Source of the DNA: Rubripirellula tenax
Lineage (GTDB): Bacteria; Planctomycetota; Planctomycetia; Pirellulales; Pirellulaceae
Assembly: GCF_007860125.1 (NCBI RefSeq)
Contig: NZ_SJPW01000008.1
Location: 62,001-126,000, forward strand
Length of the DNA: 64,000 nt
Direction of reading: 5' to 3'
A program made the translations under genes and the position numbers. A model generated the notes under the pieces. The model saw only the letters and a list, made by a program, of their open reading frames with translations, made no database searches and was not told the DNA's origin. Of this stretch, positions 17,006 to 45,245 are shown one piece after another. Within the stretch, counting starts at the first letter, position 1. Each line of letters opens with the position of its first letter.

Positions 17006-18757
17006 TCATGAATCGTTCTTGGACTTCGATGCTCGGTAGAGCAGGAAGCCAACGCCGCCGATCAGGCCGCCGCAAAACAGGAAGGCGATACGCCCACTTG
17101 GCAGATTCGGCACCAACGCCATCAGTCCGACAAAGCCGCCATAGATGAAGCAGAGAACCGCTAACGTCCTCGATTGAACTTCATCCTTGGCTTCGCCAAC
17201 TTCTTTTTGAAAGTCGATCGGCGTGCGCATCGCGACGAAGAACTTGTCCACGCGTTCAACGTGTTCCCGACTGGACGTTTTGTTGAACAGCGATGTGAAC
17301 AAAAACCAACCGCTGCATATCACGGCGTTGGCGAAGATGCCGAAGAAGTAATAGTAGTCATTCAGCTCTCGTGAACTCATTTCGCTGTCAAAGCTGCACA
17401 TCTCACCGAACCAGACCGGGTCGATGAAGTTCTTGATTGCCAACGACACGGTCAATCCGATCACCACGGTACTCCAGCCTGACCAAGGCGGCGTGTTCTT
17501 GATGATCATGCCCCACACCAGCGGAATGACATAGGGAATCGCAATCAGACCGCTGAACAGCAGCATCGCGTTGAACAGGTCCAAGTCTTCGAGTTTGCTG
17601 ATGTAGATCGCAATGAAGATGATCATTACACCAAACAGTCCCGAAACGATCTGTCCAACGACCATCAGTTGTTTTGATGAAGTGTTGGGTCGGACGCGCT
17701 GGTAAAAACATCGGACGAAGATGCCTGCGTTGCGATTGAGCCCGCTGTCCATGGACGAAATGGTCGCCGCGAACAAACCGCACACGAGCAGCCCCATCAT
17801 TCCAACGGGCAGCACCTTCATCGCCGCAAAGATGTACGATGCTTCGGCAGGGTTCTTCAACGTCGGGAAATCGACCGACAAATCAGGGCTAAGTACGCGT
17901 GCGGCCATCGGCGGAATGAACCAAATCAGCGGCCCGACAAGCATCAGCACCGATGCAAGCAGTGCTGCTTTACGCGCCTGGTTTTCATTCTTGACGCCGA
18001 GGTATCGGTACGAGTCTTGCATATTATTGAGGATCAAGAATTGCTTCAGGAACGTAGCGATGATCCAAAACCAGATGATCTGGGGTCGGGCGGCTTGCGT
18101 CCAATGGAAGTGATGGCTCGGCACCTTCTCAATCAATCCCGAAACGCCACCGATATCAGCATGACCCAGCACCATGACTGCGGTGACGATGGACACGGCC
18201 ATCAAAATCAACAACTGCACGAAGTCGCCTGCGACGATGGCCCAAGAACCGCCCGCCACCGACAACACAATGACCACGATCCCAACCACCCAAATCGTTT
18301 GCGTCATATCAAACCCGAACACGGCAGCCGCAAAAACGGCCAACCCGTTCAACCAGATGGCCGCGTAGACCAGGCTCATCGGAATCTGCAACCACGTAAA
18401 GACTTGCTCGTTCACCGGTCCGAAACGCTCGCGAACCGACTCGATCGGCGAAACGATTCGCATGCGGCGGAACCGCGGCGCGAACCAAACATAGTTGATG
18501 AAAAAACCGACTGCATTGGCGAAGAAAATCAACGCAACCAGCGCCCCGTCCTCATAGGCTTTGCTGGCGGCACCGGTAAAGGTCCACGCGCTAAACTGAG
18601 TCATGAAGGCTGATCCACCGACCATCCACCAAAGCATCTGTCCGCCGCCACGGAAGTAGTCGCTGTCGTCCTTGCTGTAATGTTTGAAGATCGGTCCAAG
18701 CGCCAACATGAACAGAAAGAAGAACGCGATTACCACATAGTCATAGACGGTCAGCAT
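17006..18757 (-). CDS. Sodium:solute symporter (SSS family)
   Basis: A 583-residue integral membrane protein with about 13-14 hydrophobic segments. It starts MLTVYDYVVIAFFFLFMLALG and then carries the typical SSS loops DYFRGGGQMLWWMVGGSAFMTQFSAW and GLNRNAGIFVRCFYQ. The sodium-site serines lie in the segment GLFAATISSMDSGLN. It probably imports uronate mono- or oligosaccharides released by the neighbouring lyases, as the ToaA/SSS transporters do in other alginate degraders (inference from context). It lies 9 bases after the isomerase-like gene and 31 bases before the SDR, so it belongs to the same minus-strand operon. Confidence 0.92.
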   Translation of the reverse strand: MLTVYDYVVIAFFFLFMLALGPIFKHYSKDDSDYFRGGGQMLWWMVGGSAFMTQFSAWTFTGAASKAYEDGALVALIFFANAVGFFINYVWFAPRFRRMRIVSPIESVRERFGPVNEQVFTWLQIPMSLVYAAIWLNGLAVFAAAVFGFDMTQTIWVVGIVVIVLSVAGGSWAIVAGDFVQLLILMAVSIVTAVMVLGHADIGGVSGLIEKVPSHHFHWTQAARPQIIWFWIIATFLKQFLILNNMQDSYRYLGVKNENQARKAALLASVLMLVGPLIWFIPPMAARVLSPDLSVDFPTLKNPAEASYIFAAMKVLPVGMMGLLVCGLFAATISSMDSGLNRNAGIFVRCFYQRVRPNTSSKQLMVVGQIVSGLFGVMIIFIAIYISKLEDLDLFNAMLLFSGLIAIPYVIPLVWGMIIKNTPPWSGWSTVVIGLTVSLAIKNFIDPVWFGEMCSFDSEMSSRELNDYYYFFGIFANAVICSGWFLFTSLFNKTSSREHVERVDKFFVAMRTPIDFQKEVGEAKDEVQSRTLAVLCFIYGGFVGLMALVPNLPSGRIAFLFCGGLIGGVGFLLYRASKSKNDS

Positions 18758-40035: not shown

Positions 40036-41526
40036 ATGGCTGACGAGTTCGAGATACTGCTCGTCGAGGACGACCCCGATACGCAAGCCAATCTGGCCGA
40101 CATCCTGGCGATGGATGGATACCGCATTCGCGTAGCCGGCACTTTTTCCGAAGTGCTTGATGCTGGGCCACAAGCAATGACGGGCTTGGTTATTTTGGAC
40201 CGAAAACTTCCCGATGGTGAAGCGGAGGACTATTTGCCAAGGTTAAAAAAACTGCTTCCCAACGCCGAGTTTATCGTCGCGACCGGACATGCCGACTTAG
40301 AGCACACCATTACGGCGTTCAAGCTCGGCATCGTCGACTACATCATCAAGCCAGTGCATCCCGAGGTGATCCGTTCCAGCGCGGCCCGGATCGCGCGTCA
40401 GCAACAAATCGAGCGAGAGTTACACCAAGAACAACAGTTCGCGAACAAGGTGCTTTCGACCGCCGAGGCAATCATCCTTGTGCTTGACCTAGCGGGAAAA
40501 GTGGTGCGATTCAATTCGTACTTCACGTCGATCACTGGATGGCAATTGGATGATCTCCGTGGACGGGACTGGTTTGATCATTGCATTCCGGAGCGAAACC
40601 GTGAAAAAACACGCGAGGTTTTCTATCGTACGGCACACGACGGACAAACTTCTGGCATCCTCAACTCAATCCTTACCACAAAAGGCCGCGAACGTGAAAT
40701 ACGTTGGTCAAACACGACGCTAAAGGACGATGTGGGCGACACAGGCTTTGTGCTCGCCGTAGGAGTTGACGTCACCGACTTGATCGCTGCGCAAGAAGCA
40801 ACCATGCAGTCCCAGCGACTGGCTGCGATCGGCCAAACGGTTGCGGGACTGGCGCACGAAAGCCGTAACGCATTGCATCGGATTCAAACGAACGTTGAGA
40901 TTCTGCAATTAGATATCTTGCCTGGTGCCGATTTGCGGGATGAAGTCGACTCAATCCACAGGGCGGCATTGGAATTGACGAACACACTGGAAGAAGTCCG
41001 GCAATACGCAGCCCCCATTCAGCTTCAACGCGAGTCGGTCATGTTGTCGGAAGTTTGGCAGCGCGTGTGGGGTTACCTGAAATCGTCACGCGATGGTCGC
41101 GATGCCTTGCTCGTTGAATCCAACGGTGGTTGTGATTGCCCGGTTGATGTGGACGTGATCCGAATGGAACAGGTCTTTCGCAACCTGTTTGAAAATTCGC
41201 TAGCCGCTTGCCAGGATCCAATCCGCATTCACCTGCACTGCCGTTGCGACAGTCCGGGGGCGATTCTATTGGACATCGAAGACAACGGTCCCGGATTGAA
41301 TTTTGAGCAACGCGAGAAATTGTTTGAACCCTTTTACACTACGAAGACTCGCGGTACGGGTTTGGGATTGTCGATTGTTCAGCGAATCGTCGAGGCGCAC
41401 GGTGGACAAATTCAAATCGCGGAGCCGAGCAGCTGCGGTGCTCGATTCTTGATTCGATTGGACAAGCACGAATCCGCTTTTGGCAATTCTTGCGAGGACA
41501 AAGGAGTGATAGGCAGCGATGCTTGA
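40036..41526 (+). CDS. Receiver-PAS-histidine kinase
   Basis: A 496-residue cytoplasmic protein: N-terminal receiver (1-120) with phospho-acceptor Asp55 in VILDRKLPDG and Lys in IIKP, a PAS domain (about 135-260), a HisKA with His274 in GLAHESRNALHRIQ, and an HATPase domain with N box LFENSLAACQD, DNGPGL and GTGLGLSI. It resembles kinases that modulate NtrC-type regulators. The ATPase half carries two cysteine pairs (GCDCP near 360; HCRCD near 394), which have counterparts in the kinase at 44151. It overlaps the next kinase gene by 8 bases; three signalling genes form one operon. Confidence 0.92.
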   Translation: MADEFEILLVEDDPDTQANLADILAMDGYRIRVAGTFSEVLDAGPQAMTGLVILDRKLPDGEAEDYLPRLKKLLPNAEFIVATGHADLEHTITAFKLGIVDYIIKPVHPEVIRSSAARIARQQQIERELHQEQQFANKVLSTAEAIILVLDLAGKVVRFNSYFTSITGWQLDDLRGRDWFDHCIPERNREKTREVFYRTAHDGQTSGILNSILTTKGREREIRWSNTTLKDDVGDTGFVLAVGVDVTDLIAAQEATMQSQRLAAIGQTVAGLAHESRNALHRIQTNVEILQLDILPGADLRDEVDSIHRAALELTNTLEEVRQYAAPIQLQRESVMLSEVWQRVWGYLKSSRDGRDALLVESNGGCDCPVDVDVIRMEQVFRNLFENSLAACQDPIRIHLHCRCDSPGAILLDIEDNGPGLNFEQREKLFEPFYTTKTRGTGLGLSIVQRIVEAHGGQIQIAEPSSCGARFLIRLDKHESAFGNSCEDKGVIGSDA

Positions 41527-42673
41527 ACACGAGCAACTGGCGATCTTGGCATCCGTCTTGGAAACCGCCGTTGACGCGATCGTCATCATTGATGACGTCG
41601 GCACGATCGTTTCCGTGAATCCGTCAACCGAACGATTGTTCGGTTATTCCGCCGACGAGATGTTGAAACAAAACGTGAAGATGTTGATGCCGTCGCCGTA
41701 CCATGGGGAACACGATGGATACCTCAAACGCTATCACGAAACGCATGAACCTCGCATCATCGGGATTGGCCGCGAAGTCGTCGGAAAGCGAAAAGATGAT
41801 ACGACATTTCCGCTTCATTTGGCGGTCAGTGAGACCAAGACGGTCGGCCGAAGACTGTTCACGGGCATCATGCGTGATATCAGCGAATTGAAGGCCGCCG
41901 AAGTCGAACTAAAACAGCTCAACGCGTCGCTCGACCAGCGAGTCCAACTGCAAGCCGATGCGATTTTGCAAACACAGGCAGAATTGGTTGAGAAGGAGAA
42001 GTTCGCGGCACTCGGTCGTATCAGCGGCGGAATCTCGCATGAAATCCGCAATCCACTCAATGCCATCAAGACGTCGGCCTACTACCTGCTCCATGCCCAA
42101 TCGCCTACCGAAGAAAAAACTCGGGAACACCTGACGCGAATTGATCGCCAAGTTGCAATCATCGACAGCGTCGTTACGGCGCTGACCGATCTGGCTCGAT
42201 TGCCCGCACCCAAGATGGATCGTTTCAACATCGAAATGGTGCTACGGGACATTGTTCAGAGGAAGGGTCTATCAAGCAATGTGTCGGTCCAGTTCGAGTT
42301 TGCACCGGATGCTCCCGATGTGATCGCGGACGAGCGACAAATTCCGATCGTGTTCGCAAACCTCATTCGCAATGCACGCGATGCCATGCCCGATGGTGGA
42401 ACGTTGACCTTATCCGGTCGAATCGACGACGAGCAAATGATCGTTCGCGTCAGCGATACTGGTACAGGGATCACGCCTGAAGTATTAACAAGAATGAACG
42501 AGCCGTTTTTTTCCACGAAGGCACATGGGATGGGACTGGGGATGGCCATCACCAAATCAATCGTGGAGAAGAATCGCGGCACGATTCGAGTCGAGACGAA
42601 GTTGGGCGAGGGAACGACGTTCTTCGTGTCGCTTCCCAGTAGTGCAGCCAAGCAGAACCGAGTCGACCCATGA
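41519..42673 (+). CDS. FixL-like PAS sensor histidine kinase
   Basis: A 384-residue cytoplasmic kinase. The PAS domain (1-125) is very close to FixL in its second half (HGEHDGYLKRYHETHEPRI then IGIGREVVGKRKDDTTFPLHL). The position where heme-binding FixL has its proximal His appears to be Arg here (EPRIIGIG), so heme binding is doubtful. A coiled linker follows, then HisKA His174 in ISHEIRNPLNAI, N box LIRNARDAM, DTGTGI and GMGLGMAI. It starts 8 bases inside the preceding kinase gene and its end overlaps the receiver gene by 4 bases. A partner NtrC-type regulator is encoded at 45681. Confidence 0.92.
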   Translation: MLEHEQLAILASVLETAVDAIVIIDDVGTIVSVNPSTERLFGYSADEMLKQNVKMLMPSPYHGEHDGYLKRYHETHEPRIIGIGREVVGKRKDDTTFPLHLAVSETKTVGRRLFTGIMRDISELKAAEVELKQLNASLDQRVQLQADAILQTQAELVEKEKFAALGRISGGISHEIRNPLNAIKTSAYYLLHAQSPTEEKTREHLTRIDRQVAIIDSVVTALTDLARLPAPKMDRFNIEMVLRDIVQRKGLSSNVSVQFEFAPDAPDVIADERQIPIVFANLIRNARDAMPDGGTLTLSGRIDDEQMIVRVSDTGTGITPEVLTRMNEPFFSTKAHGMGLGMAITKSIVEKNRGTIRVETKLGEGTTFFVSLPSSAAKQNRVDP

Positions 42674-43032
42674 CCGGTAAACGCGTGTTGATTGTGGACG
42701 ACGACCATGACATTTGCGTTAATTTGAAGGACATTCTTGACGATCTCGGATACGTTGCGGACACCGCTTGCGACAGCACATCTGCACTCCGACTCGTTTC
42801 AGCCGGCACCTATGACGTAGCTTTGCTGGACTACCATATCCCTGGAATGAACGGCGTAGATCTGCATCAGGAAATCGTCAAGAACCTCCCACAGATCGCC
42901 TCCATCATGATGACGGCATACGCCCACGATTTCGGTTGCGAACACGCCAAGGATGGCGGCATCCGCCAAGTGCTTCGCAAGCCCGTCGATATCGTAGAGC
43001 TGTTGTCGCTAGTCAAGAAGTTCTCCAACTGA
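42670..43032 (+). CDS. Single-domain response regulator (receiver only)
   Basis: A 120-residue receiver: acidic pair in VLIVDDDHD, phospho-acceptor Asp54 in ALLDYHIPGMNG, Thr/Ser in MMTAY and Lys in VLRKPVD. No output domain, so it works as a phosphate relay, sink or protein-protein switch. The ATGA overlap with the FixL-like kinase and the operon with the receiver-kinase suggest a phosphorelay among the three. Its 3' end overlaps the end of the convergent flavodoxin gene by 24 bases. Confidence 0.93.
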   Translation: MTGKRVLIVDDDHDICVNLKDILDDLGYVADTACDSTSALRLVSAGTYDVALLDYHIPGMNGVDLHQEIVKNLPQIASIMMTAYAHDFGCEHAKDGGIRQVLRKPVDIVELLSLVKKFSN

Positions 43033-43653
43033 CTGCCGCAGGCGTGCCGAGTACTGGCGGTGCGGTTTATCCACAGGGTTGAACCGCGGTCCGCTCGGGT
43101 CTGGTTGTCGGCAACTGTGGATAAGACTGGCAAAATCGCTGGCGAACGCTTCAATTGCAGGCCAGTCGGTGTAGTCGTAGTCTCGGTCTGTGTCTGTATC
43201 GCTGCCGGACTTCTTCGCGATCCAGTGCATCAAGTGCTTGGTGACACTTCCGTACTGAGAGTATCGGAGAGCACCAGCAAAACACGCTTTCCTTGACGGC
43301 GTGAAATCCTCCTGTCGCAGAAACTCGTCGGCCAGCCAAGCGGCCTCGCGTCGATCCTTGTGGTTTTTGCTGATGATTCCAAGACTAACCGAGAAGAACG
43401 CGGAAGGCGCATCGCGCAGCCATGACCGGTAGTTGCGAATGCACCAAGCGATGCGTGAGTCGTGCTCCGCAAAGTGAAGCGAGGATCCAAACACAACGGC
43501 TTGATAAGAATCAACCGCCAATCCGGTAACGTCATGCTTGGTCACATCGAAGGTGTCGGTGGGCACGCCATGTTCGGCCATGGTCTTAGCAATCCGATCC
43601 GCAATTCTTTGTGTCTGCCCCTCTCAGGTTGCATAAACGACAATCGCACGCAT
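43009..43653 (-). pseudogene. Flavodoxin-domain protein (HemG-like) interrupted by in-frame TGA
   Basis: An intact frame runs from 43581, but it lacks the FMN-binding N-terminus. Reading upstream in the same frame from ATG 43653 gives MRAIVVYAT-stop-EGQTQRIADRIAKT and then joins the open frame. This is the flavodoxin phosphate-loop (YATxEGQT) with a TGA at 43624-43626 in the x position, where relatives have Arg, Ser or Thr. One C-to-T change in CGA would explain it. The rest matches protoporphyrinogen/flavodoxin proteins (VFGSSLHFAEHDSRI; HWIAKKSG). It is 30 bases downstream of the BON gene, in the same sigma-54 unit. It could be a dead gene, an assembly error, or (less likely) recoded as selenocysteine. 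Confidence 0.8.
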
Positions 43654-43683
43654 TTCATTTTCCCCGGCGTGTGTTTTGAGATG

Positions 43684-43965
43684 TCAGTTGACCGTCAGTT
43701 CGTTCTTGATTTTCATCCCAATCGCAATCGGTCGAATCGTTTCTTGCGCCAATTGCTTGATGTAGTAGGTCGCGACATTGCCTCGAAGCACAACCGTGCC
43801 GTCTTCCACGAGCACGTGAACGTGAGTCAACTCGCGATAACCGCTCGTTTTGAGATGGTCTTCAAAGGCGATCGCTTTTTCATTTCTAGTGATCCCGGCC
43901 GAAGTCCGGATCGCAGCCTGGAATTGCTTTGCATCGAAAATTTCGGAGATCGAGGCGGTCGACAT
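43684..43965 (-). CDS. BON-domain protein
   Basis: ATG 43965 starts MSTASISEIFDAKQ; the frame to 44013 has no extra features. A 93-residue protein whose C-terminal half is a BON domain (VLVEDGTVVLRGNVATYYIK, then QLAQETIRPIAIGMKIKNEL). No signal peptide is visible, so it may be cytoplasmic; BON domains bind phospholipid or partner proteins. BON proteins are often found with universal stress genes in anaerobic-stress clusters. It is the first gene of a two-gene unit with the broken flavodoxin, behind a sigma-54 element at 44023-44038. Confidence 0.85.
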   Translation of the reverse strand: MSTASISEIFDAKQFQAAIRTSAGITRNEKAIAFEDHLKTSGYRELTHVHVLVEDGTVVLRGNVATYYIKQLAQETIRPIAIGMKIKNELTVN

Positions 43966-44022
43966 TGGGTTGCCCTTAGCGATTTGATATGGAACGTGTC
44001 GCGATCCGTGCAATCGCTACAA

Positions 44023-44038
44023 CGCAATCTGCGGGCCA
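44023..44038 (-). promoter_or_regulatory. Sigma-54 (-24/-12) promoter of the BON/flavodoxin unit
   Basis: On the minus strand: TGGCCCGCAGATTGCG; only two differences from TGGCACGNNNNTTGCW. It is 58 bases upstream of ATG 43965. No perfect GTGC-N6-GCAC site was found near it. Confidence 0.75.
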
Positions 44039-44068
44039 GAGTTGCTTGAAACTCGGCATGCTCCTGAT

Positions 44069-44084
44069 TGGCACTTGAATTGCG
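44069..44084 (+). promoter_or_regulatory. Sigma-54 (-24/-12) promoter of the PAS kinase at 44151
   Basis: TGGCACTTGAATTGCG on the + strand, near-consensus, 66 bases upstream of the kinase ATG. It is divergent from and only 30 bases away from the BON promoter. A clear upstream palindrome was not found. Confidence 0.8.
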
Positions 44085-44150
44085 GCGTACGAGAAAAAAT
44101 ACAAGAACGGGGCGGATTGGTAGAAACGACGAACTTTCGCAAATGACGCC

Positions 44151-45245
44151 ATGCAGATACCGGACATCCCTTTACGACGAAATCGACTTGCCAATCTGCT
44201 GATGGAAGCTTCCCCAGTGGCAATCATCGTGACTGATCTCGGCGGTACGATTCAGCTCGTCAATCATGTTGCTGAGTCCTGGTTCGGATACAAAGAATCG
44301 GAACTTCTTGGAAAACCAAGTTCGGTTTTATTTCAGCGAAATCCGACCGGTGACGATGTGTCACACGATTCGTGCGTTCTGTCACGAGCGGGCGACAACG
44401 GCCAGGGTGACGCTTTGGATCGCTACGGTCGCCCGAGAAAGGGGGTGCCGTTCGCAGTGAAGGTGACATTGCATCCGCTATCGTTGACAACGGGCGAGAT
44501 GGTCCTGGCCAACGTTGTGAACTTGTCCCAGAACGAGCCGGAATATGAAAAGCGAATTCAGGGGGAACGACTTGCCGCTGTCTTGGAGATGGTTTCCGGA
44601 TTGGCTCACGAAAGCCGCAACGCACTTCAGCGTGCGCAGTCGTGCCTCGACCTGCTGGAGCTTGAAATTACGGACCAGTCGGATTTATTGCATCTGACCG
44701 ATCGGATTCGCGGTGCCCTGACCGATTTGCATCAAAACTATGAGGAAGTAAAACGATACGCCGCTCCCATCATCCTCAAGATCACTGCGGTCGATTTTAG
44801 GCGGTTATGTGAGAAATCTTTCGCTGCCTTGGTCTTGGATTCCTCCAACGCTACACCACGTTTGCGGATCGACGAATGTCGCGGATGCTCTCGCCTCCAA
44901 GTCGATCAGCTTCAAATGGCGGAAGTGCTTCGCAACGTATTCGAAAACGCAATCCAAGCGAGTCTATCGGATAGCGAGATTGACTGCAGTTGTCGAATGC
45001 TTGAACACGAGTGGGTTGAAATTTGCATTCGCGACCACGGTGTTGGATTGACCGAGGAAGTGTCCCGTCGGATGTTCGAGCCGTTCTTCACAACCAAACA
45101 AAAAGGTACCGGCCTGGGACTGGCCGTATGCCAACGAATCATCGCGGCCCATCAAGGCCAAATGAGCGCTCGCAATCATCCCGATGGCGGAGTCGAAGTA
45201 CGCATTTTGTTGCCGATGGCTAAGTCCACATCCAGCGGCAAATGA
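44151..45245 (+). CDS. PAS sensor histidine kinase
   Basis: A 364-residue cytoplasmic kinase. PAS domain (about 12-125: EASPVAIIVTDLGGTIQLVN), HisKA with His153 in GLAHESRNALQRAQS, HATPase with VFENAIQASL, DHGVGL and GTGLGLAV. Its transmitter is clearly related to that of the kinase at 40036 (GLAHESRNAL, YEEVKRYAAPI, LQMAEVLRNVFENA). It shares two cysteine pairs in similar places (CRGC near 245; DCSC near 281), which could make it redox- or metal-responsive. It is the only kinase gene with its own strong sigma-54 promoter, so it may form a positive loop with the NtrC-type activator. Confidence 0.92.
   Translation: MQIPDIPLRRNRLANLLMEASPVAIIVTDLGGTIQLVNHVAESWFGYKESELLGKPSSVLFQRNPTGDDVSHDSCVLSRAGDNGQGDALDRYGRPRKGVPFAVKVTLHPLSLTTGEMVLANVVNLSQNEPEYEKRIQGERLAAVLEMVSGLAHESRNALQRAQSCLDLLELEITDQSDLLHLTDRIRGALTDLHQNYEEVKRYAAPIILKITAVDFRRLCEKSFAALVLDSSNATPRLRIDECRGCSRLQVDQLQMAEVLRNVFENAIQASLSDSEIDCSCRMLEHEWVEICIRDHGVGLTEEVSRRMFEPFFTTKQKGTGLGLAVCQRIIAAHQGQMSARNHPDGGVEVRILLPMAKSTSSGK

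Follow-up and report, generated by a model that had tools for sequence, protein, structure and literature searches.

An in-frame TGA facing cysteine codons in a planctomycete HemG-like flavodoxin gene: probably a recent nonsense mutation rather than a selenocysteine codon

The stretch of DNA analysed here (the window, 64,000 nucleotides, corresponding to bases 62001-126000 of contig C8 of Rubripirellula tenax) carries on its minus strand (43009..43653) a gene of 215 codons, including the final stop, for a HemG-like flavodoxin of the Flavodoxin_5 family, whose frame is interrupted at codon 10 by an in-frame TGA (43624..43626, minus strand). Re-reading of the assembly from 43653 to 43009 gave MRAIVVYAT-TGA-EGQTQRIADR and so on to a terminal LLD and stop, with neither a frameshift nor a second stop after the TGA. 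Thus, the initial annotation was accurate both in placing the TGA in this frame and in describing the rest of the gene as intact. The TGA falls in the phosphate-binding loop (AT-x-EGQT), at a position where the paralogue in the same genome and the other copies more than 50% identical to it have a Cys codon. This raises the question of whether it is read as selenocysteine (Sec), is a genuine stop, or is an error in the sequence.

Sequence profile analysis of the read-through protein recovered the Pfam Flavodoxin_5 domain (PF12724) over residues 4-156 with 92.7 bits (gathering cut-off 27). It also aligns nearly end to end with the model for HemG, the menaquinone-dependent protoporphyrinogen IX dehydrogenase with a Flavodoxin_5 domain (NCBIfam NF008316; profile positions 1-174 of 177, protein residues 1-177 of 214), but differs from HemG in a score of 120.3 bits that falls short of the cut-off of 142, in about 37 residues that extend past the match, and in the stop at codon 10. 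Since the paralogue and the gene of a congener, G193, both of them intact, also remain below this cut-off with 121 bits each, the name goes no further than 'HemG-like'. A search of solved structures by sequence recovered a single weak flavodoxin hit (4heq, E 0.00038); a designed repeat protein that surfaced in the same search was taken as chance. The gene is 63-65% identical over 186-210 residues to the paralogue and to intact counterparts in two further genomes, and hence its frame is not open by chance. The start is likewise plausible, because a GGGGA sequence lies 7 bases 5' of the ATG and close relatives share the same N-terminus, MRAI(V/I)(I/V)YATCEGQT or a near variant; for these relatives the alignment excludes an N-terminus that lies elsewhere, which had been named at the outset as grounds for refutation.

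Relatives of the flavodoxin were collected from overlapping sets of genomes, with matches in 28 of 241 genomes of the family (25 of 199 when this family was first sampled), 14 of 396 of the order and 39 of 392 of the phylum, many of the last being weak. A separate scan of genome contigs contributed 15 relative loci that overlap the other sets and include Rhodopirellula, Aporhodopirellula and Stieleria; a first pattern scan of such contigs had returned 23 pattern matches, none of them a relative of the flavodoxin. The 79 matched pieces from the window genome, the family, the order and the contig scan reduce to 38 distinct rows covering codon 10. The residues in these rows are Cys (10), His (6), Thr (6), Asp (4), Ser (4), Lys (2), Arg (2), Leu (2) and Ile (1), the remaining row being the TGA of the window, though the letter is uncertain in some rows as the matches are remote (two lie barely under E 1e-6, at 33-35% identity). 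None of the other 37 rows has TGA, and among the phylum matches listed only the window copy has an internal stop. Judging from this alignment, codon 10 is loosely constrained across the wider family, in agreement with the initial description of a variable residue, and the acceptance of nine different residues means that there is no conserved redox Cys at this position. Two of the relatives show lesions of their own. A weak match in G082 from the order search (E 3.5e-4, residues 63-178) has an internal TGA and TAA and ends short of codon 10, while the flavodoxin of G036 (L035:1264-1725) has an in-frame loss of 22 residues, including the conserved AFFSVSLGI stretch, and is perhaps another copy being lost.

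Closer to the window gene the picture is uniform: the seven copies more than 50% identical to it (L002, L011, L012, L013, L014, L018 and L035), one of which is the same-genome paralogue, all have Cys at exactly codon 10, encoded six times by TGC and once by TGT (TGC in eight and TGT in two of all ten Cys rows). The ancestral codon was therefore very probably a Cys codon, as far as the aligned copies can tell, and a single third-position change to TGA provides a simple account of the present state. The initial annotation had instead derived the stop from CGA by one base change; this finds no support in the close copies and appears unlikely, the two Arg codons in the alignment (one CGT and one CGA) both belonging to distant copies. 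Comparison of orthologues, as then suggested, accordingly bears out the uniqueness of the TGA and points to a Cys codon in place of the CGA ancestor.

A TGA that stands opposite Cys in homologues (here the paralogue and the six other close copies, and 10 of the 38 distinct rows overall) is a hallmark by which selenoproteins are sought. Under this reading the TGA would be recoded and a Cys-to-Sec swap would have taken place in the FMN loop; the otherwise open frame, under purifying selection (see below), and the Sec-insertion machinery encoded by most of the 21 genomes of the genus are in its favor. We therefore looked for this machinery in the window genome itself (7.99 Mb in 42 contigs, 99.91% complete). 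The best match to SelA reached 89.3 bits against a cut-off of 267.9, and that to SelB 151.5 bits against 242.25; the latter covers only the first 263 positions of the model, in a 401-residue frame that we take to be EF-Tu. For SelD, which was searched in the window genome and in named controls, the best score was 45.9 bits against a cut-off of 125. The best candidate for tRNA-Sec (selC) scored 44.2 bits against a gathering cut-off of 47 and is read by ARAGORN as tRNA-Ser, the first look having scored a part of the candidates (150 of 1274 in the run on this genome and 123 of 1274 in that on the genus). The selA, selB and selC genes whose presence had been proposed as a check thus yield no match over cut-off, and neither does SelD; the joint absence of all four components over cut-off is the decisive point against Sec.

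The same searches across the 21 genus genomes, including the window genome, placed SelA over the cut-off in 14, SelB in 15 and tRNA-Sec in 15, with tRNA-Sec scores of 66.8-76.1 bits in 14 of the 21. As controls some of these genomes are imperfect: in G200 and G167 the cut-off is passed by SelA and SelB but a strong tRNA-Sec match is lacking, and in fragmented assemblies SelA (G199, G203) or SelB (G175) is missing. SelA, SelB and tRNA-Sec all fall below the cut-off in four genomes besides that of the window, namely G193, G181 and G151, each at least 99% complete, and G202, which is 77% complete. The machinery is hence patchily distributed within the genus, being below cut-off in four near-complete genomes, that of the window (G000), G193, G181 and G151, and found in the majority of the remaining 17. 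The flavodoxin itself was found in just two of the 21 genomes, that of the window and G193, neither of which has SelA, SelB or tRNA-Sec over the cut-off; with the gene confined to these two, no Sec-equipped member of the genus was seen to carry it.

The neighborhood of the TGA offers no sign of a recoding element either. Folds around and behind it were no better than those of shuffled sequences (z-scores +1.30, +0.39 and +1.04), and a scan for SECIS-like hairpins behind it, run without a known SECIS as positive control, returned one 4-pair stem lacking a G-C pair, which was equalled or beaten by 641 of 1000 shuffles. Both results agree with the initial remark that no hairpin was evident. Cys/Sec replacement in bacterial selenoproteins is described in PMC1794560; the window gene resembles such cases in having TGA where close homologues have Cys and in belonging to a genus in which most of the searched genomes are Sec-equipped, but differs in the lack of machinery over cut-off, in the lack of a SECIS-like fold, and in that the Cys is not conserved in the family. 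Among Planctomycetes that include a Rhodopirellula isolate, the corresponding passages of PMC4807772 describe full sets of Sec-insertion genes in isolates P1 and P2 and no evidence of them in P3, the window genome being comparable to the latter; the selenoprotein named in those passages is fmdB and not a HemG-like flavodoxin. A literature search combining HemG with selenoprotein and flavodoxin found no paper.

Taken together, the sub-threshold machinery, the lack of a SECIS-like hairpin, the lack of TGA in the other 37 rows, and the variability of codon 10 lead us to reject recoding as Sec, which we regard as almost certainly wrong. Of the three options with which the analysis began, a nonsense mutation and a sequence error are retained, whereas Sec is strongly opposed. 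A related scenario is that of a fossil codon, in which the TGA was once read as Sec in a Sec-equipped ancestor and was stranded when the machinery was later lost. Such an order of events is conceivable, given that most of the 21 genus genomes carry the machinery and the window genome does not; as neither a TGA-bearing relative nor a SECIS-like remnant was found, we consider it extremely improbable.

A stop that is read through by other means would also leave the frame under selection. In this reading a near-cognate tRNA, such as tRNA-Trp, decodes the TGA with low efficiency and a little full-length flavodoxin is made; consistent with it, 171 of the 181 codons used in the selection analysis below lie past the stop, and many residues are tolerated at codon 10. 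However, the selection signal spans a branch far longer than the necessary age of the stop, and the TGA is shared by none of the other 37 distinct rows. Furthermore, the base after the TGA is G, and UGA followed by G is not known as a leaky context. A dedicated suppressor was not found: ARAGORN, run on loci covering the 95 tRNA matches of the window genome, called no tRNA with a TCA anticodon, the underlying first look having scored 150 of 300 candidates. Functional readthrough appears very improbable. ARAGORN did report one 'tRNA-Stop (tta)' at 18490-18564 in a tRNA array on contig C13. Its similarity to two neighboring tRNA-Leu genes (72% over 65 and 74% over 58 aligned bases) and to a stretch of an array on contig C4 that has no ARAGORN tRNA call (79% over 85) makes it likelier to be a tRNA-Leu with a mis-placed anticodon; it was rejected as a UGA suppressor, since a tta anticodon would at best read UAA. 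The genome has three such dense arrays of partly similar order, with 29, 27 and 17 ARAGORN calls respectively (L086:16127-19732 with L087:69-140 on C13; L084:6331-11230 on C4; L085:8598-10311 on C9). An ORF at L086:13747-14931 has, by eye, the look of a serine recombinase.

The age of the stop was approached with a branch codon model (seven sequences and 181 codons, on a fixed tree close to a weakly supported topology, with one sequence having a 22-residue gap), as saturation of synonymous sites in many of the pairs made pairwise dN/dS of little use. The window branch has an omega of 0.063, with an upper 95% bound of approximately 0.145 by profile interpolation, against 0.112 for the other branches; a common omega is only 0.73 log units worse, which is not significant, while fixing omega at 1 on the window branch is 18.5 log units worse. 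Individual branches of intact copies range from 0.049 to 0.208. Purifying selection has therefore acted on the gene throughout almost its entire history, which makes the stop either young or not real. At columns invariant in ten relatives the window copy differs at three of 41 (W136S, K138T and V167I), as compared to 1 of 39, 1 of 39 and 0 of 38 for three intact copies; where the three intact copies agree it differs at 13 of 114 positions, including the stop itself, the corresponding counts in the other copies being 6 of 107, 9 of 110 and 5 of 106. These excess changes may faintly hint at relaxed selection on the window copy. As no other lesion is present, the stop either arose very recently or reflects an error in the assembly.

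This lack of decay besides the stop counts against a nonsense mutation; it would suit a very young one, but just as well an error in the assembly or readthrough of the stop. Should the base be an error, the true codon would specify an amino acid, most likely Cys, and the gene would be intact, which would accord with the low omega over a long branch, with the otherwise open frame and with the place that the gene keeps between two kinase genes. Against this, the error would have to be a substitution in a 42-contig assembly, whereas length errors in single-base runs are the commoner kind, and the changes W136S and K138T, in columns that are otherwise invariant, hint at real relaxation. We consider an error to be the less likely, though a serious, alternative, and the TGA base to be probably real.

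The genomic context was compared in six chosen loci, namely the C5 copy and those of five other genomes. In each of the six, matches to the RR-PAS-kinase and to the PAS-kinase flank the flavodoxin. In the window these are an RR-PAS-HK kinase gene (40036-41526, plus strand) on one side and a PAS histidine kinase gene (44151..45245, plus strand) on the other, the match to the latter being shortened in one locus (C5). A second kinase gene, PAS-HK (41519-42673, plus strand), is a gene of its own in three of the six loci, as is a response regulator gene (42670..43032, plus strand) that converges on the flavodoxin, the two sharing 24 bases at their 3' ends (43009-43032). Directly upstream of the flavodoxin, on the same strand and after a gap of 30 bp, is a BON-domain gene (43684..44013, minus strand) found beside it in four of the six loci, and the two are likely to be co-transcribed. 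A scan for sigma-70 types found no promoter-like site in 42600-44300, a stretch in which shuffles averaged only 1.0. The HemG-like flavodoxin is thus lodged among the kinase genes of a two-component cassette (40036-45245).

The paralogue on contig C5, 63-65% identical to the window copy, is intact, and the genome also encodes a HemY-type protoporphyrinogen oxidase (292.2 bits, cut-off 97.85). With these two, which would cover for the window copy, its loss looks tolerable. In the phylogenetic tree neither the window copy nor that on C5 emerged clearly as the direct orthologue of the G193 gene, with supports of 35-59 at the inner nodes concerned; gene order speaks for the window copy, as on C5 neither the second kinase nor the response regulator stands between kinase and flavodoxin. 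At L104:9665-10153, in the C5 cassette, the PAS histidine kinase breaks off after a match to its first 153 residues while the flavodoxin is intact, the reverse of the window cassette, in which the kinase is intact and the flavodoxin stopped.

In conclusion, as no Sec-reading machinery was found in the genome, the TGA is most likely an ordinary nonsense mutation (or else an assembly base error); we place the probability of a recent single-stop mutation in a redundant gene at about two in three. On this account a single-base change, recent on the scale of the gene's branch, would have turned what was very probably a Cys codon at position 10 into TGA, and translation would end after nine residues. 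Restart might occur at Met25, the first in-frame ATG, GTG or TTG past the stop (ATG at 43581), to give a residual protein of 190 aa (43009..43581, minus strand) that is predicted to be without the first strand and without the loop that binds the FMN phosphate. No working flavodoxin is expected from such a product, and the full-length one is presumably not made. That the open frame from Met25 might itself constitute a new, shorter protein with its own function appears very improbable, each of the 13 other aligned rows retaining the missing elements. The nonsense-mutated copy as we interpret it is akin to other recent single-stop pseudogenes in having one nonsense codon near the start, a frame that is otherwise intact, intact relatives and a paralogue elsewhere; it differs in being, if real, so young as to be inseparable from an assembly error. 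Whether the copy is broken or has been misread, the gene is a redundant one and the wider picture stays unchanged. The locus nevertheless serves as a caution, in that a TGA opposite Cys in homologues, within a genus most of whose members use Sec, mimics a new selenoprotein until the organism's own genome is checked for the machinery.
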